Positions 5,871 to 61,980 of a DNA stretch of 64,000 nt are shown here, piece after piece. Under the pieces are notes generated by a model. It did no database searches. It was given only the letters and a program-made list of their open reading frames with translations, and had not been told where the DNA came from. The stretch comes from Dastarcus helophoroides (taxonomy: Eukaryota; Arthropoda; Insecta; Coleoptera; Bothrideridae), in NCBI GenBank assembly GCA_028583605.1, contig CM053334.1:22122368-22186367 (forward strand), written 5' to 3'. The translations under genes were made by a program, and so were the position numbers. The stretch's first letter is position 1; each line of letters opens with the position of its first letter.

Positions 5871-6287
5871 AAAAAAAAACGTAATTTTTAAAAATATCCG
5901 GAATTTTTTAAAAAACGATTTTTTCAAAATAATTCGAAAATTAAAAAATTTTTCAAAAAATTAGAAATTTTGAAAAATGTCACGAGTTTAAATAAAATCT
6001 AAAGTTTAAAAAACTTCAAAAAAAGGCTATATTCTGGAGAAATATCAAGCTTTGAAAAATGTCGAAATTTGCAAAGAAAATTTAAAGGTTTAGTTAAAAA
6101 AAAATTGAAAATTTGAGAGGGGGTTTTCAAAAACAACCGAAATTTTGAAAAAAAGGCAAAATTTTAGTCAAAACGTTTAAAAAAGTTAAAATTTTGAAAG
6201 AAGGTCGAAGTTTGGAAAAAATGACATTTTAAAAAATGTCGAAATTTTAAAGAAAGGTAGAAATTTTGAAAAAAGGTCGACATTATC

Positions 6288-6425
6288 AAAATGAGGTGAC
6301 GTTTTAAATAAATTTAAATATCACGTAGTCATATTTCAAAAGCTGCTTTAGAATATTGTCAACAAACAATAAACGTTTAAATATTTTGAAACTGGGCCGA
6401 AGAAATGTTAAATAAAATTAATAAA
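6288..6425 (+). repeat. Dispersed retroposon family B, partial copy (a)
   Basis: It shares the blocks GAGGTGACGTTTTAAATAAA, ATCACGTAGTC, TTGTCAACAAACAATAAA and GGGCCGAAGAAATGTTAAAT with copies near 26.9, 35.6, 45.9 and 46.5 kb. The 3' end (CGGTCAATAAGG...CATGAAGAA) is missing here. It lies nested within the hAT-like element, so it inserted after that element or was carried along with it. Confidence 0.7.
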
Positions 6426-7009
6426 TATTATCAAAGCAGTTCAGATATCCAACAAAAAAATCAAATTTTCGAAAAAATCTTAATTTGTGAAATTTCCTTT
6501 AAAAAGCAGAAATTTTAAAAAGTAATAATTTTGGAAACACATCAAAATTTTGAGAAAAAGTCGAAGATTTTAAAATATAAGATTTTAAAAAATTTTGAAA
6601 ACAGAAGTCCTAATTTTGAAATAACATCGAAGTTTTGAGAAATTTTCAACTTTTTAAAAAACATCACTTTAAAAAAAACCAGAAAACTTGAAAACCCAGA
6701 TTTTTAGTAAGAGCTGCAAAGTCAAATTCAAAATAGGTGAAATTCTGACCAGAATCAGAAATTCTTTTATATTATCGAAATTTAGAAAAAGCCCTAATTT
6801 TGACATGAGCAAACATTTGATATACAGATCTTCAAGATAAGGACAAGTCCGTGCCACAAAAAAATATTTTAAAAAGTGAAACTTTGAGAAAAGCAAAATT
6901 TTGACGATAGTCGAAAATTTGGAAAATGTAAGTCTTGAAAAATGTAGTCTTTTAAAGGGTTAACCTTTAAAATACTTTACAAGTTAACCTTTGAAAGACT
7001 TTAATTTTC

Positions 7010-14849: not shown

Positions 14850-16840
14850 ATTATTAATGGAGGTATTACAATACAATCGGAATAGTATTTACCAGGCAAA
14901 TAAAATCGATTCGTCGAATTAGACCGATCTCAAGTAAAATATTTAAACAAGATGGTGAAAATTGCTCGTTCGAGCGTGTTACCTTTGTGTTTGGGAATAT
15001 CAATTGTGTTCTCAGTAGTCTTTGGTAAAACAAACGAAAGTCGTCGGTTCGACAAATCGGATTGGGAATAGAAAGGTGAATGGAATAACGTCCTTAAGGA
15101 CTCAAAGATTATTCTCCTTTTCCCCTAGCGCAACTCTAATCTTTGCCAAATGTTTACATTTCCAATAAAACGAATCCGATTGTGTATTTTCTACCGCTAT
15201 ATCGACATCGCCTCTTCCATCAATCCATTCATTCGGCGCGGGGAATCCCTCAATTATCAGGATTTGAAATAATTCAGAGGCATGTTGTTTCTTCGTGACT
15301 TTGTAACGATTATGATAAAGCTCGAGTGAAAAGCCGGGGAAAATTGAAATAGGTGAACGGGGGCGGCGCGGCGTGGAGAGAAAGGGTTGCTTAGAAATAA
15401 CGCCAAGGTCCGGTATCTGCGGTGATTAAACCAAACAATATCAAAGATATGGGTTTCTTGCGCCGCCAAGGAGAGATATATAGGGATATTTATGTATGTA
15501 AAGTTGGCCGAAGATTACTCCCTGTTAATCTCCAGTCACAAAGTTGGTAAGACTGCTCGCGCTTCGTTAACAATAGATTGTAAATTATGACTAGCTGGCC
15601 ATTGTTTATACAAGATGCTACCAAGACGTGGCCCGGTTTTCCTTCACTTACTTGTTCTGCTAGATTTCACCTCACGTTTAATGATTGTTCCAACAGAGAG
15701 ATAAGGGTTTTTGCCCAACTAATTTAGAGCTCGCCGCATGAATAACGTTAATATGATATCCTTTATTCGCTTTTGCGAGATAGGTGTTTATGATTCATAT
15801 TTTAGATAGAGACGGTCTAAAAACCAACAATAAGGAACCATTCGCCATTTACGTGTTGTTACAACAGCTTGTATATAACACTAAAATTGTCAAATTACTT
15901 TCAATTTTAGAAACGACATCTCGTTGTGTTTGTCGTTCTTGAAATGATACTGAATTGTAAAAACAGACAACTGAATAAATATTTTTTAGCAAAAAAGACT
16001 CCTTCTTAAAGAACCGACAATAAAATGGAACAAGTGCCTAATCAGTTTACTTAAATCCAATTCTAGTACCTAGTCAAGATAAGGAAGGATTCAAAGGTCT
16101 TCAACATAGCGTGGCACTGGTCTGTTTTTGACAAATTAAAGTCTTATGGATTTTTATCCAGTCTTTGTTATTTGATATCCAATTGAGATAGGTCATCAAC
16201 AGTAATTGTAGTAAAAAGTTATTGCTTAAGCGAGACGTAAACGCGAGACTGCCACCACTACTCAATTTTTAGCATAGACTATCCATGTGGATACAATACC
16301 AGAAATCTCCAAGCCGCTTTGCGATAGATTTTCTGAGCCGACACCACTGTTTGTGCAACGGAGCTTTAGTCAAAGGCGCTTAGAAAGAGTAGTAAAGCGG
16401 CTATGTTGCCATAACTTCAGGATGTTTTCCTAACATGCTGAATGAAGCATCGACATTCCGTAAGATGTGTAATTTCAAATTCCGATTACGAAAAAACGAT
16501 ATCGCTAAAAATCCTCATATTTTATTATTTCATTCATAGTATCATTTTATATATGTTGGTTTTTTAGAAAAATGTATAAAGAGGTTTGGCCGGAATGAAT
16601 TAAAATTTCTTCTGTTAATCCGGTTTCACCTATAGCTTACATGTTAAAAATCGCAAGTTTGACATTGAATATCTTGACTTTGGCACCGGTATGGATCATT
16701 AAGTTTGCAGGTGTATGAGTAACACTATTAGTGATATCGATAAGGAATTTAGAGACAATCTATAGAAAAGCAATTAAGCCTACTTTCTATATGAAATACC
16801 CTAGTGACGAATCTCTGCAGGTTACCATTGATGACATATC
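14850..16840. other. Unique intergenic DNA, no gene recognised
   Basis: Non-repetitive sequence. A locally GC-richer patch lies at about 15230-15480 (GGGGGCGGCGCGGCGTGGAG at about 15359-15378). It could be regulatory or exonic, but no open frame there shows a known domain. I found no splice-linked coding model. Confidence 0.4.
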
Positions 16841-16844
16841 TTCT

Positions 16845-18214
16845 TATTTTTCTTCTGCTTCTTTTTCCTCTTTTCCCCTTTCTCTTCCTCTTCCTCTTCA
16901 TCTTCTTCTTTCTCTTCATCTTCTTCCTCTTCTTCCTCTTCTGCTTCCTCTTCTTCCTCCTCTTCTTCCCCCTTTCTTCTTCTTCTTCTCCCTCTTCTTC
17001 CTCTTTTTCTTTCCCTTCTTCCCCTTCTTCTTGTCCTTTCTCTTTTCCTTTCTCCTCTTCCTCCTCTTCTTCCTCTTTTTCTTCTTTCCCTCTTCCCCTT
17101 CTTTTTCTTCTTCTTCTTCCTGTTCTTCCTATTTTTCTTCCCCTTCTTTTCTTTTTTCTTTCTCTTCCTCTTCCTCTTCTTCTTCTCTTCCTCTTCCTCT
17201 TCTTCTTTCTCTTCCTCTTCTTCCTCTTCTGCTTCCTCTTCTTCTTCCTCTTCTTCCCCTCTTCTTTTTTCCCCTCTTCTTCTACTTCTTCTTCCTCTTT
17301 TCCTTTCCCGTCTTCTTTCTTTTATTCTTGTCCTTTCTCTTTTCCTTTCTCTTTTTCCTCTTCTTCTTCTTCTTCTTCCCCTCTTCCTCTTCTTCTTTCT
17401 CTTCTCCTTATTCCTCTTCTTTCTATTTTTCTTCCCATTCTTTTTCATCTTCTTCCTCTTGTTTTCTTTCTCTTCCCATTTCTCTTCCTCTTCTTTTTCC
17501 TCTTCTTCTTCTTCCTATTCTTCTTCCTCTTCTTCTTCCCCTTCTTCTCCTTCTTCTTCTTTCTCTTCTTCCTATTTTTCTTCCCCTTCTTTTTTCTCTC
17601 CTTCTTCCTCTTCTTCTTCTTCTTCCTCTTCTTCTTTCTCTTCCTTTTCTTCTTCCTCTTCTGCTTCCTCTTCTTTTTCCTCTTCTTCCCCCTCTTCTTG
17701 TTCCCCCTCTTCTTTTACTTCTTCCTCTCTTTCTTTCCCTTCTTCTTTCTCTTTCTCTGTTCCTTTCTCTTTTTCCTCTTCTTCTTTTTCCCTCTCTTTC
17801 TCTTCTTTCTCTTCTTCTTCTTATCCCTCTTCTTCCTATTTTTCTTCCCCTTCTTTTTCATCTTCTTCTTCCTCTTCTTTTTCTTTTATTTTCCTCTTTT
17901 TCTTCCTCTTTTTCTTCGTCGTTTTCTTTCCCCTCTTCTTCCTCTTCTTTTTCTTTCTCTCTTCCTTTCTCTTCTTCCTCCTCTTCTTCCTCTTCTTTTT
18001 CCTCTTCTTCTTCTTCCTATTTTTCTTCCTCTTCTTCTTCTTCCTATTTTTCTTCCTCTTCTTCTTCCTCTTTTTCTTCCTCTTCTTCTGCCTCTTCCTT
18101 TTCTTCTTTCTCTTTTTCTTCCTCTTCTTCTTTTTTTTCTTTTTCTTCTTCTTCCGCTTCTTCTTTTTCTTCCTCTTCTTCTTCTTCTTCCGCTTCTTCT
18201 TCTTCTTCTGTCTT
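16845..18214. repeat. 1.37-kb polypyrimidine (TTC/TTCC) tract
   Basis: Almost uninterrupted C/T on the plus strand, built from TTCTTCC-like triplets and hexamers, with rare A or G. It abuts the 3' end of the minus-strand RTE-like relic, so on that strand it is a GAA/GGAA-rich tail. Stop-free frames of 200-490 codons on both strands are composition artefacts. Confidence 0.95.
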
Positions 18215-24850: not shown

Positions 24851-24862
24851 CAGCAATACAAA

Positions 24863-25199
24863 TTACAACAGTACAACAGTACAACAGTACAACAGTACAA
24901 CAGTACAACAGTACAACAGTACAACAGTACAACAGTACAACAGTACAACAGTACAACAGTACAACAGTACAACAGTACAACAGTACAACAGTACAACAGT
25001 ACAACAGTACAACAGTACAACAGTACAACAGTACAACAGTACAACAGTACAACAGTACAACAGTACAACAGTACAACAGTACAACAGTACAACAGTACAA
25101 CAGTACAACAGTACATCAGTTCAATAGTACAACAGTACAACAGTTCAACAGTTCAACAGAACAACAGTACAACAGTACAACAGTACAACAGTACAAAAG
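24863..25199. repeat. Microsatellite (AACAGTAC)n, 8-bp unit
   Basis: About 34 near-perfect 8-bp units up to about 25135, then degenerate copies (GTTCAACAGTTCAACAG) to 25199. It is the first block of a 2-kb compound microsatellite. Stop-free frames in it encode only repeat peptides. Confidence 0.97.
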
Positions 25200-25540
25200 T
25201 ACAAAATACAAAAATACAAAAATACAAAAATACAAAAATACAAAAGTACAAAAATACAAAAGTACAAAAGTACAAAATTACAAAATTACAAAATTACAAA
25301 AGTACAAAAGTACCAAAGTACAAAATTACAAAAGTACAAAAGTACAAAGTACAAAATTATACGAAATACAAATTACGAAATATAAATAATAAATATAAAA
25401 TACAGAGTACAGAGTACAAAATACAGAGTACAAAACACAAAACAAAATACCAAGTACAGAGTACAAAGTACAAAACACAACATACAAAATACAAAATACA
25501 ACATAGGACATACAAAATACAAAATATTAAATACAAAATT
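25200..25540. repeat. Transitional ACAAA/TACAAA-rich simple repeat
   Basis: Irregular mixtures of AAAATAC, AAAAGTAC, AAATTAC and AGAGTACA units with varying spacing. They bridge the 8-bp array to the left and the regular 7-bp array to the right. Confidence 0.9.
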
Positions 25541-26070
25541 ACAAAATACAAAATACAAAATACAAAATACAAAATACAAAATACAAAATACAAAATACAA
25601 AATACAAAATACAAAATACAAAATACAAAATACAAAATACAAATACAAAATACAAAATACAAAATACAAAATACAAAATACAAAATACAAATACAAAATA
25701 CAAAATACAAAATACAAAATACAAAATACAAAATACAAAATACAAAATACAAAATACAAAATACAAAATACAAAATACAAAATACAAAATACAAAATACA
25801 AAATACAAAATACAAAATACAAAATACAAAATACAAAATACAAAATACAAAATACAAAATACAAAATACAAAATACAAAATACAAAATACAAAATACAAA
25901 ATACAAAATACAAAATACAAAATACAAAATACAAATACAAAATACAAAATACAAAATACAAAATACAAAATACAAAATACAAAATACAAAATACAAAATA
26001 CAAAATACAAAATACAAAATACAAAATACAAATACAAAATACAAAATACAAAATACAAAATACAAAATAC
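25541..26070. repeat. Microsatellite (AAAATAC)n, 7-bp unit
   Basis: About 75 units, nearly perfect. The same 1-bp contraction (CAAATAC) recurs at about 25641, 25689, 25932 and 26029, which points to duplication of longer blocks. The long minus-strand open frames here arise because a 7-bp stop-free unit is open in several frames. Confidence 0.97.
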
Positions 26071-26264
26071 AAAATGCAAAATGCAAAATGCAAAATGCAA
26101 AATGCAAAATGCAAAATGCAAAATGCAAAATGCAAAATGCAAAATGCAAAATGCAAAATGCAAAATGCAAAATGCAAAATGCAAAATGCAAAATGCAAAA
26201 TGCAAAATGCAAAATGCAAAATGCAAAATGCAAATGCAAAATGCAAAATGCAAAATGCAAAATG
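26071..26264. repeat. Microsatellite (AAAATGC)n, 7-bp unit
   Basis: About 28 units differing from the previous block by one A-to-G transition. The boundary at 26071 is abrupt. Plus-strand reading frames give MQNAKCK repeats, which is artefact. Confidence 0.97.
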
Positions 26265-26845
26265 CAAACAAACATACAAACATACAAACATACAAACATA
26301 CAAACATACAAACATACAAACATACAAACATACAAACATACAAACATACCAACATACAAACATACAAACATACAAACATACCAACATACCAACATACCAA
26401 CATACCAACATACAAACATACAAACATACAAACATACAAACATACCAACATACAAACATACAAACATACAAACATAGAAACATACAAACATACAACATAC
26501 AAACATACAACATACAAACAAACAAACAAACATACAAACATACAAACATACAAACATACAAACATACAAACATACAGACATACAGACATACAGACATACA
26601 GACATACAGACATACAGACATACAGACATACAGACATACAGACATACAGACATACAAACATACAAACATACAAACATACCAACATACCAACATACAAACA
26701 TACAAACATACAAACATACAAACATACAAACATACAAACATACATACATACAAACACAAACACACAAACATACAAAATACAAACTACAAATATACAGCAT
26801 ACAACATACAGCATACAACATACAACATACAACATAAAACATTAT
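26265..26845. repeat. Microsatellite (AAACATAC)n with CAGACATA and CCAACATA variants
   Basis: An 8-bp unit repeated to about 26760, with a homogeneous CAGACATA sub-block at about 26575-26655 and scattered CCAACATA units. It then decays into CATACAACATA copies to 26845. Confidence 0.97.
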
Positions 26846-26915
26846 AATTGAAAATTGAAAATAAAAATACAGAATATTCTCAAAATTTTTATTTATTTTA
26901 ACAAGTTCAATACAC

Positions 26916-27068
26916 GTTTTTTCAATTTATTTAACATTTCTTCGGTCCAGTTTGGCAATATTTAAATTTTTATGGTTTGTTGACAATTTTCTAAACAGTT
27001 TTTGAAATGCGACTACGTGATAAAAAAAACATAATATTTGCGGTCAATAAGGGTCTACCATGAAGAAT
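26916..27068. mobile_element. Retroposon family B, copy (b), 5'-inverted
   Basis: Flanked by a 13-bp direct repeat AAGTTCAATACAC (26903-26915 and 27069-27081). The left part is the family sequence in minus orientation (TTATTTAACATTTCTTCGG through GCGACTACGTGAT). The right part is the family 3' end in plus orientation (CGGTCAATAAGGGTCTACC, ATGAAGAA). An inverted 5' piece joined to a normal 3' piece and flanked by a long target duplication is the pattern left by target-primed reverse transcription with twin priming. Confidence 0.8.
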
Positions 27069-27099
27069 AAGTTCAATACACTTTCTAAATTTCAAATTT

Positions 27100-31192: not shown

Positions 31193-31360
31193 TTTTGGTG
31201 GAACGGACTGGTCCTTAGTTATCTTCAAAAATTGAAATACAAATCTGGTCCCTGAAACCAAGAAAGATTAAAAAACACAACAAAAGTTGCTCTAACGCGT
31301 TTTGATAGTCAAGCTATCATCTTCAAAGAGATACTCTCTCTGACAAGATTTGTATTTTAA
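31193..31360. mobile_element. Palindromic family P element, copy 1
   Basis: It starts TTTTGGTGGAACGGACTGGT. It then has the shared blocks AAATTGAAATACAAATC, CTGAAACCAAGAAAGATTAA and GTTGCTCTAACGCG, and a minus-strand hammerhead-like region whose stem II (GATAGC/ACTATC) has changed. Only the left arm is complete here. Five other copies lie at about 32.1, 33.9, 38.6, 44.0 and 59.8 kb. Confidence 0.75.
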
Positions 31361-32067: not shown

Positions 32068-32289
32068 TTAGTTGAATGGACTGGTCCTTGGTTATCTTCA
32101 AAAATTGAAATACAAAGTCTTGTCCCCTGAAAACTAAGAAAGATTAAAAAACACAACAGAGGTTGCTCTAACGCGAGAAGTACTGTATATCTCTGAAGAT
32201 GATAGCTTGGCTGTTGAAACGCGTTAGAGCAATCTTTCTTGTATTTTTTAATCTTTCTTGGTTTCAGGGGACAAGTTTTGTATTTCAAT
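32068..32289. mobile_element. Palindromic family P element, copy 2
   Basis: The left arm (from TTAGTTGAATGGACTGGTCC) and an inverted right arm (to GGGGACAAGTTTTGTATTTC) meet near 32176. The plus-strand right arm has CTGAAGA, a GATAGC/GCTGTT stem with TTG loop, then GAAACGCG (32193-32222), a hammerhead-like core with one additional U after CTGAAGA. Confidence 0.8.
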
Positions 32290-33690: not shown

Positions 33691-33872
33691 TTCCAAAACA
33701 GTCAATATCTTGAAAAATGTCAGAAGTTTTCATTGAAAGTTAAAACTTCCAAAAAAAGTTCAGGATTACAAAAAACAGCAATATTTAAAAAATAGCCAAA
33801 TTTTCGAAAAAAAAAGCTGAAATTTAAAAAAATAGTCTGAAATTTAAAAAATATTCGAATTTATGTAGAAAT

Positions 33873-34076
33873 TGAAATACAAATCTTGTCCCCTGAAACC
33901 AAGAAAGATTAATAAAAGAAGTAGAAATATCAGTATCTCTCTGAAGATGATAACTGGGCTGTCGAAACGCGTTAGAGCAACCTTTGTTGTGTTTTTGAAT
34001 CTTTATTGGCTTCAGGGGACAAGATTTGTATTTCAATTTTTGAAAATAACCAAGGACCAGTCCGTTTCACCAAAAA
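33873..34076 (+). mobile_element. Family P element, copy 3, with 11-bp target duplication
   Basis: Flanked by TATGTAGAAAT at 33862-33872 and 34077-34087. The left (inverted) arm is truncated. The right arm runs to the intact family end CCAGTCCGTTTCACCAAAAA. A hammerhead-like core lies at 33937-33977: CTCT, CTGAAGA, one extra U, a GAUAAC/GGCUGUC stem, GAAAC, the palindromic ACGCGU, U, then AGAG, which pairs with the leading CTCT. Long target repeats plus truncation point to retroposition rather than cut-and-paste transposition. Confidence 0.8.
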
Positions 34077-34087
34077 TATGTAGAAAT

Positions 34088-35123
34088 GTCGAAATTTAAA
34101 AAAAATGAAGAATTTTTAGTGAAACCTCCTAAACATCCTAATTCCGAAAAAAGGTCAAACTTATCAAAAATTTCGAAATTTTTGTTGACTAAAACTGAAA
34201 AAAAAAAAGTTAACAAGTCGCTAATCTTAAAAAAAATCAATTTAAACAAAAAAGTCGAAGTTTTCAAAAAAAAGGTATGGTTTTTAAAGAGGCCAAAATG
34301 TTGAAAAACATCGACATTTTGAAAAAAATTCAAATCCAATATTTTGATATTTTCAAAAATAATAACTTCCAAAATTTCTATAATTTTTGAAAATTTGAGC
34401 TTTTTTGATAACCTGGTTTTATTTCTATTTTCAAAAAATTCAGCTTTTTTTGAAAATTTGAAAGAAATATTCAATTTCTAAATCTAGAAATTTTTTTAAA
34501 AATCTTTTGTTTTAGAATGTTTAGATTACTTTCCAAAATGTACTTTTTTTTTAATACCGATTAAATGTCGCCATTTTTTCTAATTTTAGTATTTCTTCAA
34601 AATTATGCATATTTTATTTGAAATTTGGATTTTAGCTTTTTCGAAAATTTAAACCTTTCATGAAAATTTCGATATTTTTCAAAATAACATTTTACAAAAA
34701 TTTCGACGTTTTCGACTTTTTTTTTTAAATTTTAACTTTTTTCAGCAGGTAATTTCGATTCTTATCAAAAATACTACTTTTTTGAAAAATTTGACAAGTT
34801 TGAAATTATTTTGAAAAGTTTGTCTTATATCCAAATTTTCAATTTTTTTTTTGTAAATTACGCTTTCTCTAAAATTTCAACTTCTTTCAAAATTTCGATT
34901 TTTAAGGTTTAGTCCAATTTTTGAAAATATTGATTTTTGAATTTTACTTTTTTTAAATTTTTACCATTTTTAGAAATTTTTATGGTAAATTTTAAATTTC
35001 TTTTTAATTCGAATTTAAAACACAAATTTTATTAATTTATCTTAAATTTCGATATCCAGTGCTACAACTTTTTTATGTATTTTTTTTATTTTCATAATTT
35101 ATCAAAAAAACAAATTTTTTTTC
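34088..35123. repeat. Degenerate array, plus then minus orientation
   Basis: A-rich plus orientation to about 34340, then T-rich minus orientation up to the solo LTR. No gene. Overlapping open frames at 34067-34474 (minus) and 34086-34304 (plus) are low-complexity artefacts. Confidence 0.65.
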
Positions 35124-35127
35124 ATAT

Positions 35128-35490
35128 CGTTACGGGCTTATTGGTTCGATTGATTACACTTATCGAATAAGACCCACTTTATTATTGAATTAACTCGGCA
35201 CACTTCAACTGAACAGTAACTCACTAATTATTTACAAATTGCTAACCCACTAACTACACCGGCTTTTAACTGACTGCCTCGAGGGAAAGCTGACCGCCTT
35301 TTTATAGTTTTGGGCCGCGGTTTCTAGAACTTTTCGACAGATAAGGCTTATCGTTTGCCGAAATTTCTGGAACGCTTATCTGCCGTTTGTTTCGTTATCG
35401 CGGCCGCTTTCCCCTTATCAGAACCTTCTAGAAACTTTTTTTATTTACTAAATTCTACAATTCTATTCTAACTATTTACATTGCGTTACA
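35128..35490 (-). mobile_element. Solo LTR of a Ty3/gypsy-like retrotransposon (copy 2)
   Basis: 363 bp, homologous along its whole length to 27985-28357 (shared CAGATAAGGCTTATCGTTTG, GTTATCGCGG(T/C)CGCTTTCCC, TTGCGTTACA). Also flanked by ATAT (35124-35127 and 35491-35494). Many substitutions between the two copies show independent, fairly old insertions. Confidence 0.85.
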
Positions 35491-35519
35491 ATATCTACTT
35501 TTGGTCTTCTATTTTTCAT

Positions 35520-35745
35520 TTTTCCTATTCTATGTAAAATAAACTAACCTCTTATTTTGTTAACTGTCATGAGGTGACGTTTTAAATAAATTTAAATAGC
35601 ACGTAGTCATATTTCAAAAACTGTTTAGAATATTGTCAATAAACAATAAAAATTTAAATATTTCCAAACTAGGCCGAAGAAATGTTAAATAAAATTAAAA
35701 ACATAACATTTCCGGTCAATAAGAGTTCACCATGAAGAATCAAAA
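35520..35745 (+). mobile_element. Retroposon family B, copy (c), co-linear
   Basis: Uninverted copy. In order it shows CTATTCTATGTAAAATAAAC, AACTGTCATGAGGTGACG, ATAGCACGTAGTC, AACTAGGCCGAAGAAATG, then the 3' end CGGTCAATAAGAGTTCACC and ATGAAGAAT. It sets the normal order of the family against which the inverted copies at 26.9 and 46.5 kb can be read. Confidence 0.8.
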
Positions 35746-36571: not shown

Positions 36572-36714
36572 TGATAACGAAGGCTTCCACGGCCAGAGTT
36601 AGTACAGGATATACTTCTTCCGGGATTGGACCGTGTCAAAGAACTACTAAAAGTGTTCTGAACACTTTTAGTAGTTCTTTGACACGGTTCAATACCGGAA
36701 GAAGTATATCCTGT
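36572..36714. mobile_element. Near-perfect palindrome flanked by a 15-bp direct repeat
   Basis: The flanking repeat ACTAAAATATTAATG occurs at 36557-36571 and 36715-36729. The insert has arms of about 58 bp with almost no loop, centred near 36660: AAAGAACTACTAAAAGTGTTC, continuing outward through CCGTGTC and GAAGAAGTATATCCTGTACT. The left side has extra non-palindromic sequence (TGATAACGAAGGCTTCCACG). Long target repeats suggest retroposition of an inverted-dimer product. Confidence 0.75.
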
Positions 36715-38564: not shown

Positions 38565-38882
38565 TACAAAAATTGTCCCCTGAAACCAAGAAAGATTAAA
38601 AAACACAACAAAGTTTGCTCTAACGCGTTTCGACAGACAAGCTGTTATCTTTAGTATCTTTCTGAAAATGATAGCTTGGCTGTCGAATGCGTTAGAGCAA
38701 CCTTTGTTCTGTTTTTTTAATCTTTCTTGGTTTCAGTCAGCATCTCTCTGAAGATGATAGCTTGGCTGTCGACAAGCGTTAGAGCAACCTCCGTTGTGTT
38801 TTTTAATCTTTCTTGGTTTCAGGAGAAAATTTTTGCATTTCAATTTTTGACGATTACCAAGGACGAGTCTGTTCCACCAAAA
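38565..38882. mobile_element. Family P element, copy 4, rearranged (three arms)
   Basis: One inverted arm is followed by two direct arms. Hammerhead-like cores occur at about 38658-38695 (CTGAAAA, degraded) and 38744-38784 (CTCT, CTGAAGA, GATAGC/GCTGTC stem, then GACAAG in place of GAAAC, then AGAG). The right end is CGAGTCTGTTCCACCAAAA. The extra arm shows duplication within the element. Confidence 0.75.
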
Positions 38883-44016: not shown

Positions 44017-44356
44017 TTTTGGTGGAAGGGACTAGTCCTTGGTTATATTTAAAAATTGAAATACAAATCTTGCCCCCTGAAACGAAGAAAGATTAAAAAA
44101 CACAACAGAGGTTGCTCTAAACTAGACTTTATTTAGAATTAACCAGTAATTTAAGTCAATTTGTAGAATTTTGTGAATTTCAGAGGAAAATGTTCTGTGC
44201 CATCTCTGAGAAGGTTAGACAAAAGTCTAGCATTCTTAAGAAAAAATTATGCAAATTAGGTGCCCTTAAAGAATATTCTTCTCGAAAAAATATTAAGAGC
44301 AACCTTTGTTGTGTTTTTTAATCTTTCTTGGTTTCAGGGGACAAGATTTGTATTTC
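44017..44356. mobile_element. Family P element, copy 5, with unique centre
   Basis: The left arm TTTTGGTGGAAGGGACTAGT... to GTTGCTCTAAA and the right arm AGAGCAACCTTTGTTGTGTT... to GGGGACAAGATTTGTATTTC are separated by about 165 bp of non-palindromic sequence (CTAGACTTTATTTAGAATTA...). It has the longest interior among the copies here. The hammerhead-like core is not present in this copy. Confidence 0.8.
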
Positions 44357-45039
44357 AGCAGAGGACCTGGCCCCTGCCCTAGTCCAAAGTTCCGTTATCT
44401 GCCCTGACTAAAAAAAGTGTTTTCTTTGGCATAGTTTCACGTTTCAATGTTAGGGCTGATAGGTGGCGCTTGGAAGTAATGAGACCTTCTTGTACAAACT
44501 AATTTCGGATATATTCACCTTTTGTGTAATTTACGGTGAATGCGAGTCCCCGTAGTTAAAGAAAACGGCGATATAATAACCATCTCATGATGTCGTCACG
44601 TTACCGTATCCATTTATGGGGTGTGATGTGCCGTTTCACACCGCGATCCACTAAATTTAATCAAGGGTTTCTTGGCGGCGGGCATCTTCGATATAATGAA
44701 AGGACTTTAGTAGACGTAAAGGGTTAGTTAAGATGAACGGGGTAGTAAAACGGGGCCGGGGAGATATTTATGCCCTCATCAGTTTACAATGACCCTCCTC
44801 GGAGGGGGCGGGCGGCGTGAGGGTTAAGAAAACAACACACGCCAACCCTGGTTTCTGAATTATGTCGAAATCCAATGCTAACGACAAATACCGTGGATAT
44901 CTTCGCCTTCCCGTGAAATGCACAAGTTGATTTAGTATCGGCGACTTCCTAATGTTCTTAAGGAATCCATACGGCGTGTTCCAGATTGGTGGTGGAATTA
45001 TTATAATCTAGAACACTTTTATAATTGCACTCTTTTGAC
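44357..45039. other. Unique, locally GC-rich DNA
   Basis: No open frame with a known domain. The patch 44740-44850 (AAAACGGGGCCGGGGAG, GGAGGGGGCGGGCGGCGTGA) is unusually GC-rich for the window and could be regulatory. An AGGTGGCGCT motif lies at 44461-44470. Confidence 0.4.
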
Positions 45040-45538
45040 TTCTTAGATTAGATTATAGATTAGATCATATATGGGTCGTTTCGTGTTTCTCTTCGTCCAC
45101 CCCGCACCTCTACCTAAGGAGATCTTTTGTGCATACCCTGATCTATGTAGTTCCCAGGTTCAAACTCTTGTAGAAGTTTATTATGGACCTAGGATTGAGT
45201 TTTTCCGCATCTGAGGGGTCTATTGACGCCCATCCAAATTGGACGTGCCTTTTGCGCGCAAGCGCATCGCACTTGCATAGCACATGTTCTGTAGTCTCCA
45301 CAGCTTCTGCGCAAAAGCGACATAGGTCTGTTTCAGCCTGACCCATTTTCTTGAGGTGGTACCTCATAGAGCAATGTCCTGTTAAGAGGCCGTTTAGGAT
45401 CCTCAATTCGGATTTGCTGAGTTCTAACAAGGGGAGGGCACGAGGAAATTCATTTGAGGATGAGACTCCGTGCAATTTTAGTACTTCTTTACGGTGTTTA
45501 ACCCTTAAAGTAATAGCGCCGAATGGCCAGCCAACTTA
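45040..45538 (-). pseudogene. LINE (Jockey/R1-like) C-terminal relic with 3' tail
   Basis: The minus strand is open from about 45538 to the stop near 45143. It reads LRVKHRKEVLKLHGVSSSN, then LLELSKSELRILNGLLTGHC, YHLKKMGQAETDLC and CRFCAEAVETTEHVLCKC. This is the RNase H-distal, zinc-finger-like tail of insect non-LTR pol proteins (LTGHC...CRFC...ETxxHxLCxC). About 130 codons remain. There is no internal stop in the remaining part, so the insertion may be young but 5'-truncated. The 3' untranslated part ends in TAGATTA-type repeats (about 45040-45075), a LINE-like tail. Confidence 0.85.
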
Positions 45539-45673: not shown

Positions 45674-45852
45674 AGCTTTTTTTTCTTTTTTTTTTATTAA
45701 ATTCTTTTACCAATTAAATTGTTTCGAACAATTTCTTAAGAAATATTAAATTATATTTTAATTATCGTAATTATTTTACTTTTTAGAATATAAAATAACT
45801 ATAAGTAATAATAATGTTTATTAATAGTTATGTCAAGTAGAAAATTTAGTTC

Positions 45853-46310
45853 TTCATGGTAGACCCTTATTGACCGGAAATATTATGTTTTTTTCAATTT
45901 ATTTAACATTTCTTCGGCCCAGTTTGGAAATATTTAAATTTTTATGGTTTGTTGACAATTTTCTAAACCGTTTTTGAAATGCGACTACGTGATATTTAAA
46001 TTTATTGAAAACGTCAGTTGACAGTTCACAAATTAAGAGGTTAGTTTATTTTACATAGAATAGAAATAATAAAAAATAGGAGACTAAAAATTAGACATGG
46101 AAAAAAAAATAAAAATTTGTCTTTTGTTAAATTAGGAAAATATAAAAAAAATATATAAAAAAGGCTGTAGCACCGGACATCGATGTTTCGCTCTCATTTG
46201 AGCTCGTCAGCAGTGCATAACATGGAAAGGGAACAATGAGGAAGAAATACTTAAAAATAAAAATTGTTTTAAAATATAAAAAAAGAAAAATAAAGAAATT
46301 TTAACATGAA
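45853..46310 (-). mobile_element. Retroposon family B, copy (d), with hammerhead upstream
   Basis: Longest copy, minus strand. From 5' to 3' on the minus strand it has the hammerhead (46216-46170), about 90 bp of A/T-rich spacer, CTATTCTATGTAAAATAAAC, AATTTAAATATCACGTAGTC, GGGCCGAAGAAATG, and the 3' end CGGTCAATAAGGGTCTACC, ATGAAGAA (45853). The 5' limit is uncertain. Left flank AAATTTAGTTCTT (about 45845-45857) also occurs right of copy (e) (about 46717-46729), so the (d)-(e) region may be one composite insertion. Assignment to Penelope-like retroelements is inferred from the hammerhead. Confidence 0.65.
46170..46216 (-). ncRNA. Hammerhead ribozyme, complete core (type I)
   Basis: Minus strand, 47 nt, every conserved position present. 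Stem I is GCACUG with CGGUGC (6 bp, one G-U). The CUGACGA box is followed by stem II GCUC/GAGC with loop AAAUGA. Then come GAA, stem III ACAUCGAUGU (self-complementary, A15.1-U16.1 kept) and C17, giving the cleavage triplet GUC between plus positions 46176 and 46175. A distal UGU/ACA pairing with an internal UAU loop extends stem I, as in fast-cleaving natural ribozymes. The short stem III and type I layout are typical of hammerheads in Penelope-like and other retroelements of animals. Activity is predicted, not shown. Confidence 0.85.
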
Positions 46311-46342
46311 TAGACGTTTCATCTTCAATTTACTGTGTTAAA

Positions 46343-46470
46343 AAAAATCTACTTTTTTTTTAAAATCTCAACTTTTTTCACAATTTCGACATCTTAAAAC
46401 TTTGGATTGTTTTTGAAAATTATGAAATTTTTTGAGGAATATGATTTTTATGATAATTTCGACAACTCAT
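46343..46470 (-). repeat. Inverted copy of 40598-40735
   Basis: It shares CTCAACTTTTTTCACAATTT, CATCTTAAAACTTTGGATTG and GATAATTTCGACAACTCATT with the complement of 40598-40735, nearly without change. This is far closer than the general similarity between degenerate arrays, so it marks a recent duplication or two young copies of one element. Confidence 0.8.
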
Positions 46471-46710
46471 TAAATTCTTCATGGTAGACCCTTATTGACC
46501 GGAAATATTATTTTTCATTATTTCTATTCTATGTAAAATAAAATAACCTCTTAATTTGTGAACTGTCATGAAGTGACAATAAATTTTTCAATAAATTTCA
46601 ATATCACGTAGTCGCATTTCAAAAACTGTTTAGAAAATTGTCAACAAACCATAAAAATTTAAATATTTCCAAACTGAGCCGAAGAAATGTTAAATAAATT
46701 GAAAAAAACT
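46464..46710. mobile_element. Retroposon family B, copy (e), 5'-inverted
   Basis: It begins with the family 3' end in minus orientation (TTCTTCATGGTAGACCC, TTGACCGGAAATATTA), then switches to plus orientation for the 5' part (CTATTCTATGTAAAATAAAA, ATCACGTAGTCGCATTTC, GAGCCGAAGAAATGTTAAAT). The junction falls at the same A-rich site as in copy (b). Confidence 0.8.
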
Positions 46711-46714
46711 TTTT

Positions 46715-48595
46715 AAATTTAGTTCTTTTCAGTTTCGATTTTTAAAATTTCGCCTCTTTTCAAACTGACAATTTTTTTACTGTCATTCAACGTATCGAAC
46801 AGTTCATCTTTTTAAAAAATTTTACTTTTTAAACATTTTAATTTTTTTTATAATAAAATCTCTGAAATTTCAGTTTCTCTGGAAAAATCAAAATGTCGGG
46901 TTTTTTAAATAAATTTTTCTATAATTCAGATTTTGTTTCCAAATTTTGAATTTTTTATCAAAATTTCGACTTTTTAAAAATTTTGGCTTAAAAATTTTTT
47001 TCATGCAATTTTCAACTCTGCAAAATATCAATTTATTGCAAAATTTTACTTTTTTGATTTCGACGTTTTTTAAATCTTTCTCTTTTAAAAATTGTAGATT
47101 TTTTTCGGAAAGCTCGTCACACCAAAGATTTTTTAAAATGTCCACTCGTAAGTAATGAAGGTCGAAATTTACCGATTAAAGTTAAAATATTCCGATGAAG
47201 GTGAAGTTTTGTTTTCTTTCTTCTTTTTTTCGAATTTTTAGGCTCAGAACTCACAATTTCGAGAAAAGTAGACAGTTTGAAATTAAAGTCGAAATAAAGT
47301 CGATATTTTGATTCTAAAGTTGGAACTTTAGGAAAAAAGTAAAAATTTAAATTTCAAACTAATCATTTTGACAGAGAACTCGAAGTTTGAACAAAAAACA
47401 AAGATTTTAAAAAATTCTGGTATTTTCGATTTTAAAAATTTGAAACTAGCGTGGGTAAACTTCCAAATTATAAAAAAATGAGTTCTAACCAAAAACCGTG
47501 AAAAAAAAAGAAAGTTTGTATTTAAATAAAAACATTATTCATTAAAAAAAACCAAAATTTAGATTTTAATCTCGAAATTTTCGGAAATTTATTGAAATTT
47601 TACATTTAAACGTGACATTTACAAACAAATTTATAGTAAAACTAAATTATAAATTTCTAGTTTCTCTTAAAATTTTCAAATTTTTCTCATAATTTCTCGT
47701 TAACTTCAAATTTGTTTTTATCAATTTTAAGCTTCTGTGGACATTTAAACTTTTTTCTCAAAATGTATCGATTATGTTTGACATTTTAAGGTTAAAGCCG
47801 AAATTTTGAGGAAAAAAGTCAAAAGTTCCAAAAAAAGTGCCATTTATTAAGGAAAAACGTTTCAAAAAAATTTTAATTTGACATTTTATCCATTTCATCG
47901 AATTTTTACTTTATTCTCAAAATTCGAGAAAAAGGCAGAAATTTTAAGATTTTCTTAGGAAAGTTTCTTCTGAAAATTCTGATTTCAAACTTAAACCTTC
48001 ATATTTTTCTCTAAAATGTTGTTTCAAAACTCGAAGTCTAGACTTTCTTTTGGAAATTTTGTCTTTTGATCTTAAAATGTTGACCTTCACTTCAAGGTTT
48101 CAACTTTTTCTTGAAATTTCGAATTTAATCTTAAAATTTGGACGTTTTTCTCGAAATTTCGTGTTAGAACTTAATTCTTGTGAATGGCCATTAGTATTTG
48201 TTCAAAATTTGGACATTTTCTTAAAATTCTGTGTTTAAATTTTATAATTGAAAATTCGAAGATATTTTTGTTTTAAGAGTTTTTTATTTTTTCAAAGTTT
48301 TGCATAACATTTTTCATTGAAAGTTAAAAATTATACTTTTTAAAGTTTCACTTATAAATTTCCAGTTTTTCTGTTTGAAGTTTTTTTTTTCAAAATTTCG
48401 TGTTTAATTTAAACTACGACAATTAGATTCTTTAAAATTAATTTATTTTTAATATTTTAAATAATTTTTAAAATTTTTTGACCTTTGTGTTACATTTTTC
48501 ACGTTAAAGATAATTTTTTATAGTTTTTTCCGATTTTAAAATTAAAATTCTGAACTTCTCTTAGAAATTTTGATTTTAGTCTGAAAGCATGCTAA
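46715..48595. repeat. Degenerate AT-rich array, mostly minus orientation
   Basis: Degenerate TTTCGACTTTT-type and related repeats with no coding evidence. It ends at a hAT-like terminus near 48692. Confidence 0.6.
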
Positions 48596-58700: not shown

Positions 58701-61700
58701 TTGACTCTTTCTTAAAATTTAGTTTTTCTGAAATTCGTCTGTTTTCTCAAAATTAGATTAGCACGTTATCAAAAATTAATAACGTTAAGAAAAATAATTT
58801 TAGTAATTTTCGAAATCTCGGCATTAATTTCAACATTAATTAAGTTTAATTTCTGGAAATGTCGACTTTTTGCTCTAAATTGACTCATTCTTAAAATTTC
58901 GTTTTTCTGAAATTCGTCTGTTTTCTCAAAATTGGTTTGGCATGTTATCAAAAATTGAGAAAAATGATTTCGGTAATTTTCGAAATCTCGACATTAATTT
59001 CAAAATTAATTAAGTTTAGTTTCCGGAAATGTCAACTATTTCCTCGAAAGTGACTCTTTCTTGAAATTTTGTTTTTCTGAAATTCGTCTGTTTTCTCAAA
59101 ATTGGTTTGGCACGTTATCAAAAATGAATAACGTTAAGATAAATAATGTCGTTAATTTTCGAAATCTCGACATTAATTTCAACATTAATTAAGTTTAGTT
59201 TCTGGAAATGTCGACTTTTTGCTCGAAATTGACTCTTTCTTAAAATTTCGTTTTTCTGAAATTCGTCTATTTTCTCAAAATTGATTTGGCATTTAATCAA
59301 CAATTGAGAAAAATAATTTTGGTAATTTTCGAAATCTCGACATTAATTTCAAAATTAATTCAGTTTTGGTTTCTGGAACTGTTGACTTTACCTCGAAATT
59401 GACTCTTTCTTGAAATTTCGTTTTTCTGAAGTTCGTCTGTTTTCTCAAAATTCGTTTGGCATGTTATCAAAAATTAATAATGTTGAGAAAAATATTTTCG
59501 ACAATTTCAAGAGAAAGATTTCTGTACATTAAATGTCATTATTGAAATTTAAATATTATTTTAAAATTAGATTGAAAAAGCCAAAATTTGGAGAAAAATG
59601 TTTTTGGAAATTCCAAATTTCTTCGCTATTGGAAATATTTTTAGAATTTTCAACATTTTTCGAGTTTTTCAGAATTGTAGGCTTTTTATTCCAAATTTGG
59701 TTTTCTAAATAAATCGACGTTCTTAAAATTGGTTTTTTTTTTTCGAAATTCGTCGTTTTTAAAATTACGACTTTATTTAAAAAAATTCTACTTTGTCTTT
59801 TTATTTGGTGGAACGGATCGATCCTTGGTTATTCTCAAAAATTGAAATACAAAAATTGTCCCCCGAAACCGCTTTCCTGGTTCCAGGGGACAATTTTTGT
59901 ATTTCAATTTTCTATTTTTCTCTTAAAATTGAGGTGAATTAGAAACTTTAAAATTTCCTGCAGTAATTTTGACCTTTTTTTTTAACTTTTCGAACGTATT
60001 TTTCAAAAATCATTATTTTTTCAAAATCCATATTTTTAGATTCGGTTTTTTTCTGAATTTTTATTTTCTTAATTTAAATTTTCGAAAATATCATATTTTT
60101 CATAATGTGTCCTATTCTCGAAATTTTGGCATTATACTTCAACATGCGATATTTTATGATCTGGAAAATTTCTACTAACGGTGGAAATTTTTCTCAAAAT
60201 TTCATCTTTTTCAGAAAATTGCTTTTTTTTGACTAAATTCGACCTTTCAAAAAATATATTTTTTTTTGAATTTTTAAACTTTCTTGAGATTTCGAAAGCT
60301 TAGTTTTTTATTTTAAATATGATTTTTTCAACAATTCAAGTTTTCCCAAAATTTTATTTTTTTCTTGAAATCCGTCTCTTCGAAATTATTCTTAAAAATT
60401 CTACTTTTGCCCTCAAAATTAAACTTTCTTTTTGAAATTTTGACCTTTCTTTAAGAAATTTCCACCTTTTTTTGCGACATTACGACGATATTTTTCAAAA
60501 GTCGTTATTTTTTGGAAATCCGTTTCTTTAATATCCGGATTATTTTAATAATTTCTTAATTTTTAAATTTGACTTTTCGAAAATGTATTGCTTCTCAAAA
60601 TTTTGACAAAATACTATGGTTCTGAAAATTTCTCCTCACAATGGAACATTTTCTCAAAATTTCGACTTTGTTTTTCAAAATTCTTTATTTTGCCAAAATT
60701 GGATTGATCTTTTAATAAAAAACCAAATACTCTGAGAATAACGTTTTAAGGAAATTCGATAAAAAGGTTTATTGTGAATTTCAACTTTAGGACAAAATTG
60801 AAATGAAGTAAAATTCTGAGAGAAATATTTTTGGGGACTGAATTTTTTTTCTCTAAATTCGACTTTACGTGACAATTACCAGAGTAATTGTCACTTTTTT
60901 CACAAAATTCGACTTTCTAAAATTTCGATTTTTTTTCTTCGAAATTTCGACATTTTTCAAAGTTCGTCTATATTTCCAAATTTCAAATTTAATCTGAAAA
61001 TTCGATCCTCCAGTTCATGTACTTAAGGGAAAATATACATATACTTAGCCGGCATTTTCCGGTTTTCTCTTTTTTTTAATTAATTTCTCACAATGATTCT
61101 TACCCCTCTCAGAACGAAATCCTGCCTACGCCTATATAAGGAATTTATTCCATTTGGCTGTTCCACACTATATACTTGATGAACTATGGATATCGAACAA
61201 TTCTACCAAATAATTATTAGTTTTTTAATTAAAGTCTTAACTTCTCATGACTTAAAAACTGAAAACGGTCTCAAATATTCTGCCAAGAGTCCTCCAAATT
61301 TTGAAGAAAATAGGGAAAAAAATTTCAAAGAAAAAGTCAACTATTTGAGTTTAAATCAAGTAGTAAAGACTATTTTTAAAATATTAACTTTTTTCCCAAG
61401 TTTCGTTTTTAAGTATGCAACTTTCCTCTTCCAGGGTCAGTTCGGGGGCGCACCAGGTGGTGGCTTCCAAGCTGGCCGTGGTTTATTAACCTGTTTCCCA
61501 AGTTTCGTTTTTAAATATGCAACTTTCCTCTTCCCGGGTCAGTTCGGGGGCGCACCAGGTGGTGGCTTTCAAGCTGGCCGTGGTTTATTAACCTGTTTCC
61601 CAAGTTTCGTTTTTAAATATGCAACTTTCCTCTTCCAGGGTCAGTTCGGAGGCGCACCAGGTGGTGGATTCCAAGCTAGCGGTGGTTTTCCCGGAGCAGG

Positions 61701-61980
61701 TGGCGGTTCCAACGGTGGTGGTGGTCAACCAGGCGGTGGATTTGGGGGTATGGGCATGCCGTCTATGGGTGGACAAGCTGGTGGTAGCTTCGGAATGCCA
61801 GGAGGGAGCGGTTTTCCATCTGCATCGATGTCTGGTAGTGTGGCTTTTCCTAGTCCTTTTGGTAGCGCTGGTTTTAGTGGGGGTGCCACTGCGTCATTAG
61901 TTAAAGGTGCTCAAGGCGGTATGTCGGGGGGTTTTCCAGCAGCAGCTTCAAGTAATGATCAAGCGAAAACATCTTCTTAA
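55683..61980 (+). CDS. Secreted glycine-rich protein, two-exon gene
   Basis: Exon 1 (55683-55733) encodes MGVALILVITAFLAVCQ, a classic hydrophobic signal peptide, and ends at CAA followed by GTAAGTATT. Exon 2 begins at GGTCAGTTCGG after CTTCCAG, in phase 0, and ends with TAA at 61978-61980. Using the most 3' acceptor (61639) the protein is 130 residues. After the signal comes a Gly/Gln/Phe repeat region (GQFGGAPGGGFQASGG, GGGQPGGGFGGMGMP), then a Ser/Ala/Pro-rich tail ending DQAKTSS. No cysteine follows the signal peptide. Such composition is seen in structural cuticle-, silk- or shell-type and in glycine-rich defence proteins of insects. Which, if any, cannot be decided here. The intron is 5.7-5.9 kb and full of transposons. 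Confidence 0.75.
55971..57108. mobile_element. Outer inverted-repeat element in the intron
   Basis: The ends ACCATAGGACAATAAGCATA and (complement of the right end) ACCATAGGACGATTAGTATA continue as GGCCCCAGAA, ATATCTGGA and a CAGATCTC block. The arms are diverged (about 80% by eye). A 611-bp MITE sits inside, so this element is the older host. No coding capacity. Target duplication not clear. Confidence 0.7.
56314..56924. mobile_element. 611-bp MITE with long inverted termini (TACAGGGTGTTTCATAATT)
   Basis: The ends TACAGGGTGTTTCATAATTG and CAATTATGAAACACCCTGTA are perfect complements. The similarity extends about 170 bp through GCATGCTGAACCGGCAGG, TTGGGCAATTTTAAGACAAA and TCGATATACAGGGCGG. 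The arms are nearly identical, so insertion is recent. TA at both outer edges is compatible with a Tc1/mariner-type target. The centre (56490-56750) is unique and non-coding. Confidence 0.85.
57150..58110 (-). repeat. Intronic tandem array, three units of 320-370 bp
   Basis: The anchor AAAATTTAT(T/C)CCGAAATTCAA occurs at about 57191, 57561 and 57880. Each is followed by CACGA(T/A)TC, CCCAAAA(C/T)TG, TCTATAAATTTTCCGG and TTTTAAAGAGGAAAAAAA blocks. Confidence 0.8.
58445..59500 (-). repeat. Intronic satellite-like array, six units of 170-180 bp
   Basis: The anchor AAATCTCG(A/G)CATTAATTTCA occurs at about 58454, 58634, 58813, 58983, 59162 and 59332. Each unit also carries GGAAATGTCGACT, TTCTGAAATTCGTCTGTTTT and GGCA(C/T)GTTATCAA. 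Unit length is close to nucleosomal spacing. Two minus-strand open frames of 60 codons are parts of this repeat. Confidence 0.9.
59804..59911. mobile_element. Family P element, copy 6, minimal hairpin
   Basis: TTTGGTGGAACGGATCGATC starts the left arm. AAATTGAAATACAAAAATTG and CCCCGAAACC are mirrored by GGTTCCAGGGGACAATTTTT and GTATTTCAATTTT after a loop of only a few bases. The hammerhead-like centre has been lost. Intronic. Confidence 0.8.
59915..61390 (-). repeat. Intronic degenerate array and unique tail of the intron
   Basis: 59930-60990 is T-rich degenerate repeat in minus orientation. 61000-61390 is mostly unique intron sequence. The open frame from 61186 into the last exon has no start context or coding character before 61435 and is treated as intron. 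Confidence 0.6.
61395..61700 (+). repeat. Exact 102-bp triplication of intron end plus exon start
   Basis: Units 61395-61496, 61497-61598 and 61599-61700. Each contains CCCAAGTTTCGTTTTTAA, the pyrimidine tract ACTTTCCTCTTCC, the acceptor, and exon codons for GQFGGAPGGGFQA. Acceptors: CCAG in unit 1 (exon at 61435), CCCG (broken) in unit 2 (61537), CCAG in unit 3 (61639). 102 bp is 34 codons, so all units stay in frame. Units 1 and 2 end GGCCGTGGTTTATTAACCTG, where the true exon has AGCGGTGGTTTTCCCGG. Confidence 0.95.
61639..61980 (+). CDS. Exon 2, glycine-rich terminal exon
   Basis: 113 codons plus stop, phase 0 after CTTCCAG at 61632-61638. GC-rich coding composition against the AT-rich surroundings and long Gly-rich frame support coding. 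If the unit 1 acceptor is used instead, the exon starts at 61435 and gains 68 residues with two hydrophobic LLTCFPSFVFKYATFLF insertions, which would be odd in a glycine-rich secreted protein. Confidence 0.8.
   Translation, partial: GQFGGAPGGGFQASGGFPGAGGGSNGGGGQPGGGFGGMGMPSMGGQAGGSFGMPGGSGFPSASMSGSVAFPSPFGSAGFSGGATASLVKGAQGGMSGGFPAAASSNDQAKTSS

Follow-up and report, generated by a model that had tools for sequence, protein, structure and literature searches.

A sequence with the appearance of a complete hammerhead ribozyme lies on the minus strand of the window, the whole 64,000-nucleotide stretch of Dastarcus helophoroides DNA analyzed here, and it raises the questions of whether it is a genuine ribozyme and of what larger sequence it forms part. 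The preliminary description had placed it at 46170..46216, where the sequence is indeed present. A type I hammerhead is defined here by the core elements CUGANGA, GAA, the A15.1-U16.1 pair and a cleavage triplet NUH, and by three stems of which stem I is open-ended. All of these core elements, as previously claimed for this locus, can be read from the sequence, along with a GUC cleavage site and stems I, II and III of 6, 4 and 3 bp (Table 1). Stem I is adjoined by a UUAU/UAC internal loop, which is well kept in the alignment of repeat copies and resembles the UUAC/UAC of its counterpart in Hammerhead_HH9 (Rfam RF02275), which we take to be one of the conserved vertebrate hammerheads. A distal UGU/ACA helix, proposed earlier as a tertiary contact with loop II, is possible but contributes no more than about 0.4 kcal/mol; of the two elements, the internal loop is the better supported. 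Hammerhead-like patterns were also noted in 51 stretches of viral contigs (L001-L051).

A chance resemblance within AT-rich repeats has to be weighed against this match, since loose core patterns are as frequent as chance predicts: a pattern lacking stems gave 29 matches in the window versus 29.3 expected, and is uninformative. A strict descriptor (the core plus a 4-bp stem II, a 3-bp stem III and 4 bp of stem I) matched the window once, and matched only 3 of 200 dinucleotide shuffles. Searched with Rfam in E-value mode, the segment 46153-46225 matched Hammerhead_HH9 at 37.4 bits (E 7.3e-6 over 64 kb), a score below the curated cut-off of 52 bits for that family; at the gathering threshold, Rfam gave no match in the whole window. 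The minimum-energy fold of the segment is not the hammerhead, energy alone favoring another structure; such a calculation is a poor guide to structures stabilized by tertiary contacts, yet it provides no support.

The 539-Mb assembly (50 contigs) contains 1187 exact copies (572 + 615) of the 26-nucleotide core CTGANGAGCTCAAATGAGAGCGAAAC, and none (0 + 0) of the reversed pattern. HH9 matches were found in all 16 loci scanned, at 35.2-40.2 bits, each below the same cut-off, and all six stem I pairs are kept in 70 of 79 compared copies. Genomic homologues preserving the core and stem pairings, which the preliminary description had proposed to look for, are therefore abundant. Mismatches occupy 39 of 2205 cells (1.8%, the sum of six classes) at ribozyme positions that played no part in selection. 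In the surrounding repeat, the corresponding counts are 815 of 14229 (5.7%) for segment a, 267 of 4169 for the T-rich region and 387 of 3472 for segment U. The lower mismatch in the ribozyme suggests constraint, a reading weakened by the selection of all 79 copies through an exact neighboring core and by the noisy alignment of the AT-rich flanks. Given the Rfam E-value, the rarity of the descriptor in shuffled sequence, the 1187 cores against no reversed ones and the slower change of the ribozyme than of its flanks, a chance origin is scarcely credible and was rejected, in keeping with the earlier expectation that so exact a core would seldom arise by accident. At the level of sequence and structure match, the motif is confirmed as a real type I hammerhead, and its very short stem III is, as had been suggested, consistent with the hammerheads of animal retroelements.

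More informative than the ribozyme itself is the mobile repeat around it, which was absent from the preliminary description. Read in the sense of the ribozyme, the unit consists of Z (about 210 nucleotides), U, the hammerhead, a T-rich region, segment a and a 37-nucleotide tail d, in all about 700 bp (with a period of 693 nucleotides in the natural copy L067). We refer to the end of segment a as site 1 and to the end of tail d, 37 nucleotides downstream, as site 2. An exact 35-nucleotide word of Z has 220 + 232 genomic copies versus 0 for the reversed word. Among places chosen by Z, an exact core lies downstream in 35 of 47 on contig 1. Of the places fetched, 5 of the 10 from contig 2 have it, and the remaining ten, from contig 1, are excluded from the count because they were selected for lacking it. 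A search of three repeat loci gave no tRNA, and a tRNA-derived promoter was rejected on that ground; two B-box-like words occur in one locus (L116). In another (L058), the Z region holds the splice-like words GGTGAGT, CTAAC, TTTCAG and GTAAGT, and a short frame, MKNKPIPLTERTDSANGECF, begins in the tail. One repeat locus contains a run of (CCTAA)n, presumably the insect telomere repeat.

Sequence around the ribozyme recurs in part within the window near 6.3, 27.0, 35.0-35.7 and 46.5-46.7 kb, and the copies so delimited are listed in Table 1.

Table 1. Elements of the hammerhead and copies of the repeat, in window coordinates
Feature	Position	Strand	Basis
Type I hammerhead with UUAU/UAC internal loop; all core nucleotides, three stems and GUC site	46167..46220	-	sequence, HH9 match, strict descriptor
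Stem I, GCACUG/CGGUGC; 6 bp, one U-G	46216-46211/46175-46170	-	
Core CUGACGA	46210-46204	-	
Stem II, GCUC/GAGC; 4 bp, AAAUGA loop	46203-46200/46193-46190	-	
Core GAA	46189-46187	-	
Stem III, ACA/UGU; 3 bp, UCGA loop	46186-46184/46179-46177	-	
GUC; predicted cleavage 3' of 46176, between 46176 and 46175	46178-46176	-	
Ribozyme-bearing repeat copy: end of Z, U, ribozyme, T-rich region, a, tail; 3' end is site 2	45850..46345	-	mapped to the L067 copy, F447-940
37-nucleotide tail d, between both end sites	45850..45886	-	alignment of window copies; 67 of 69 mapped clusters have their right end at one of the two sites
Second, short insertion: 5'-truncated a (plus, ends at site 1) and inverted tail (ends at site 2)	46472..46709		copy comparison
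Third copy: broken within ribozyme loop III, ends at site 2, interrupted at 35129-35490	35049..35739	+	copy comparison
Fourth copy: inverted arm from site 1 and tail ending at site 2	26903..27081	+	alignment of window copies
Fifth copy: 5'-truncated a, ends near site 1, without tail	6282..6435	+	alignment of window copies

Two of these copies are bounded by duplications, of 13 bp in the fourth (AAGTTCAATACAC, at 26903-26915 and 27069-27081) and 9 bp in the fifth (ATTATCAAA, at 6282-6290 and 6427-6435). The second has a possible duplication, TTAAAT, seen by eye only, and no convincing target-site duplication was found at the ribozyme-bearing copy. The 362-bp insert that interrupts the third copy has ATATC at both flanks and, by eye, the look of a solo LTR. 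The surroundings are AT-rich: the 2-kb bin 46001-48000 has a GC content of 24%. Elsewhere, the window carries long microsatellite arrays, 7-8-bp and pyrimidine-rich, at 24861-26876 and 16839-18214, and a near-perfect hairpin at 36617-36701 that shows, on both strands, weak matches to two microRNA families and is more likely a MITE-like palindrome. A six-frame scan of 42-46 kb gave a weak zf-RVT match at 44500-45500 on the minus strand, below the curated cut-off and likely a LINE relic, and the same kind of coding scan of 60-64 kb returned nothing useful. A 264-codon glycine-rich frame at 61186-61980 contains three 102-bp tandem repeats and has no homologue at E 0.001.

To describe how the insertions end, we mapped 68 loci among the 1187 exact cores, plus the window copy, against L067 as reference, giving 69 clusters. 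All 68 come from the start of contig 1, a single stretch of one contig whose copies share ancestry, and ten were picked for holding two ribozymes. Outer ends were classed for the ribozyme-holding cluster, with boundaries in AT-rich DNA that may be misplaced by several bases. The right end falls at site 1 in 39 clusters, at site 2 in 28 and elsewhere in two. The left end is an inverted arm in 37 and was scored as a sense truncation in 32, several of which have a short inverted tail in the flank that was missed by BLAST. Where both ends could be classed, 31 of 32 loci pair a site-1 end with a site-2 end (Fisher p 3e-8, on the assumption of independent loci): 17 have site 2 on the left and site 1 on the right, 14 the reverse, one (L054) site 2 at both ends and none site 1 at both. 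Seed-based scoring, which is looser and noisier, gave one site per end in 36 of 42 loci (p 4e-6, on the same assumption), site 1 at both ends in four and site 2 at both in two. The left and right flanks share at least 10 nucleotides in 31 of 69 clusters versus 0.7% of mismatched pairings, and at least 8 nucleotides in 36 of 69 versus 6.5%; about half of the mapped insertions thus have target-site duplications.

An optional tail of this length, inverted head-to-head arms, partial tandems and target-site duplication are the end features of Penelope-type retrotransposons (PLEs), and all four occur in the repeat. In the passages of PMC11167929 cited here, reverse transcription by the anole PLE protein begins at two internal sites, the stretch separating these sites corresponds to the optional PLE tail of 30-40 bp, and the target is cut and extended on both strands. 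For Penelope families in Adineta, the cited account (PMC3846280) reports one inverted pLTR bearing a 31-bp tail, repeats inverted head to head, partial tandems, duplications of 8-10 bp and the mobilization in trans of another sequence lying between pLTRs. The ends of the copies we examined look as if they had been pasted in by a Penelope-type enzyme, and it is from these ends that we infer a PLE as the partner of the repeat.

Enzymes of this kind are encoded in the genome. A GIY-YIG profile search gave at least 91 matches (150 of 1070 candidates scored), and both of the PLE frames scanned, of three fetched, contain RVT_1 and GIY-YIG domains; the best named relatives of one of the proteins are insect proteins, such as one of Molorchus minor at 57%. 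These frames lie elsewhere in the genome, and the single open reading frame of PLEs, which combines reverse transcriptase (RT) and GIY-YIG, was not seen in the repeat in the loci compared. Two PLE proteins, set against the window region and all 68 loci, revealed no RT or GIY-YIG frame belonging to the repeat; the protein matches in two of those loci flank the repeat (L055) or lie away from it (L072). In L055, a repeat copy at 1310-2106 has pieces of a GIY-YIG frame of the type in PLE locus L122 on both sides, so this copy was apparently inserted into the relic of a PLE gene.

The end features would also be expected if the repeat had arisen by deletion, or as a solo pLTR, from a true PLE family with an autonomous member bearing the same ribozyme, and were hence a PLE relic rather than a separate family mobilized in trans; PLEs do carry hammerheads and have solo pLTRs in the accounts cited (PMC11167929, PMC3846280). 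We regard this as the less likely origin, given the lack of an RT or GIY-YIG frame in the loci just described, the canonical form of the ribozyme where the cited descriptions of PLE ribozymes call them minimal, and the three PLE loci, in which no repeat surrounds the gene apart from separate fragments in L120. No autonomous element with this ribozyme occurred among the loci compared, and an autonomous relative carrying it may exist unseen.

Downstream of the PLE gene in L122 lies a shorter hammerhead-like word. Fragments of that downstream region, 85-94% identical, occur in the window at 31195-31335, 32074-32289, 33869-34073, 38566-38880, 44019-44357 and 59805-59911, several of the six in opposed pairs, and some hold CTGAARATGAYARCT..GGCTGTYGAAA.GCGTTAGAGC, a possible minimal PLE hammerhead.

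Separate mobilization by a PLE must also be set beside an ordinary animal non-LTR retrozyme, in which the ribozyme-cut RNA would be circularized and the circle reverse transcribed into tandems, the PLE-like ends being incidental or due to LINE twin priming. The canonical type I hammerhead and the lack of a gene would fit, as in the cited parts of PMC7229834, and partial tandems are common, several insertions reading a-d-Z-U-ribozyme-T-rich region-a. Tandem units also appear to exist: of 100 listed places of the exact Z word, three same-strand neighboring pairs are spaced at 710, 714 and 713 bp. Within the first 100 ribozyme places, however, the 10 ribozyme pairs less than 1.5 kb apart are all divergent, at distances of 274-1159 bp, with no tandem pair among them; the unit of about 700 nucleotides lies outside the 170-400 of retrozymes; and two fixed sites, used one per end, are not a prediction of twin priming. 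We consider a retrozyme of this ordinary kind improbable.

Whether cleaved RNA leaves a mark on the insertions was judged from break points inside the ribozyme, on one side only, after 15 had been set aside as ribozymes with small changes. The 42 that were scored are spread over E142-E158 with no pile-up at the predicted cleavage position: because only three fall at E156, and 12 at E155-E158, there is no clear mark of cleaved RNA, and the spread counts against cleaved RNA as the usual template. It does not contradict mobilization by a PLE, since the anole PLE needs no ribozyme cleavage for insertion in vitro, as stated in the cited part of PMC11167929.

Given that no gene was found in the repeat in the loci compared, and that it has a canonical ribozyme, a unit of about 700 nucleotides and a weak tandem habit, we class it as non-autonomous, like a PLE repeat in its working and resembling a retrozyme. 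The likely explanation is a non-autonomous, retrozyme-like repeat with a canonical hammerhead, mobilized in trans by a PLE. The ribozyme would then belong to a non-coding mobile repeat, either as a functional component or as a relic of recent date. Copies would be transcribed, with the hammerhead able to process the RNA, and a PLE reverse transcriptase/GIY-YIG nuclease encoded elsewhere in the genome would copy the RNA into staggered breaks. Copying would begin inside the RNA, from site 1 for one strand of the target and from site 2 for the other, and both cDNA arms would extend toward the 5' end of the RNA, halt at variable points and be joined. Such two-arm copying would leave inserts arranged head to head, with just one end bearing the tail and with target-site duplications at the flanks.

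With more reserve, we put forward the wider idea that canonical type I hammerhead elements may be mobilized by Penelope-type enzymes, and that the ends of each insertion may use different RNA start sites, as if a two-part enzyme were fed one site per target strand. If true, this rule would identify what mobilizes at least one family of retrozyme-like elements, an issue left open by the review PMC7761336, in whose cited passages metazoan retrozymes lack a conserved motif revealing the autonomous element used. PLEs are called a strong candidate partner in the cited part of PMC7229834, from shared features and co-occurrence, and a repeat with a canonical hammerhead and PLE-type ends in dozens of mapped copies bears on that matter. 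The near-exclusive pairing of one site per end is testable in the existing in vitro PLE system, and the more than a thousand natural copies are material for asking whether self-cleavage matters to insertion.

Among known systems, HH9 (RF02275) shares with the window ribozyme its core, its stem lengths and a UUAY/UAC internal loop; the repeat ribozymes differ in scoring 35-40 bits, below the cut-off of 52, and in sitting in a mobile repeat. The hammerhead repeats of Schistosoma (the W-elements of PMC8490949 and S-alpha, cited there) are likewise mobile and non-coding with type I hammerheads, and the passages of that source cited here make no mention of PLE-type two-site ends. Animal non-LTR retrozymes, in the cited parts of PMC7229834, resemble the repeat in being non-coding and AT-rich (GC < 50%), with a canonical type I hammerhead, duplications of more than 4 bp and PLEs in the same genome. 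They differ in unit size (170-400 nucleotides versus 693 in L067), the repeat appears mostly non-tandem, and those parts do not describe PLE-type ends. As for PLEs, no gene was found in the repeat, and the near-exclusive pairing of one site per end was measured for the repeat. The PLE hammerheads of the cited descriptions are minimal, without helix III or loop contacts, in contrast to the canonical form here with its 3-bp helix III, tetraloop and internal loop, and the anole PLE (PMC11167929) has a stem-loop at its start sites, which was looked for at sites 1 and 2 of the repeat and not found. In the same cited passages, Poseidon of Anolis (PMC11167929) and Penelope of Adineta (PMC3846280) nonetheless share with the repeat the two-site optional tail, head-to-head arms, 5' truncation, partial tandems, target-site duplications and a hammerhead in the repeated part.
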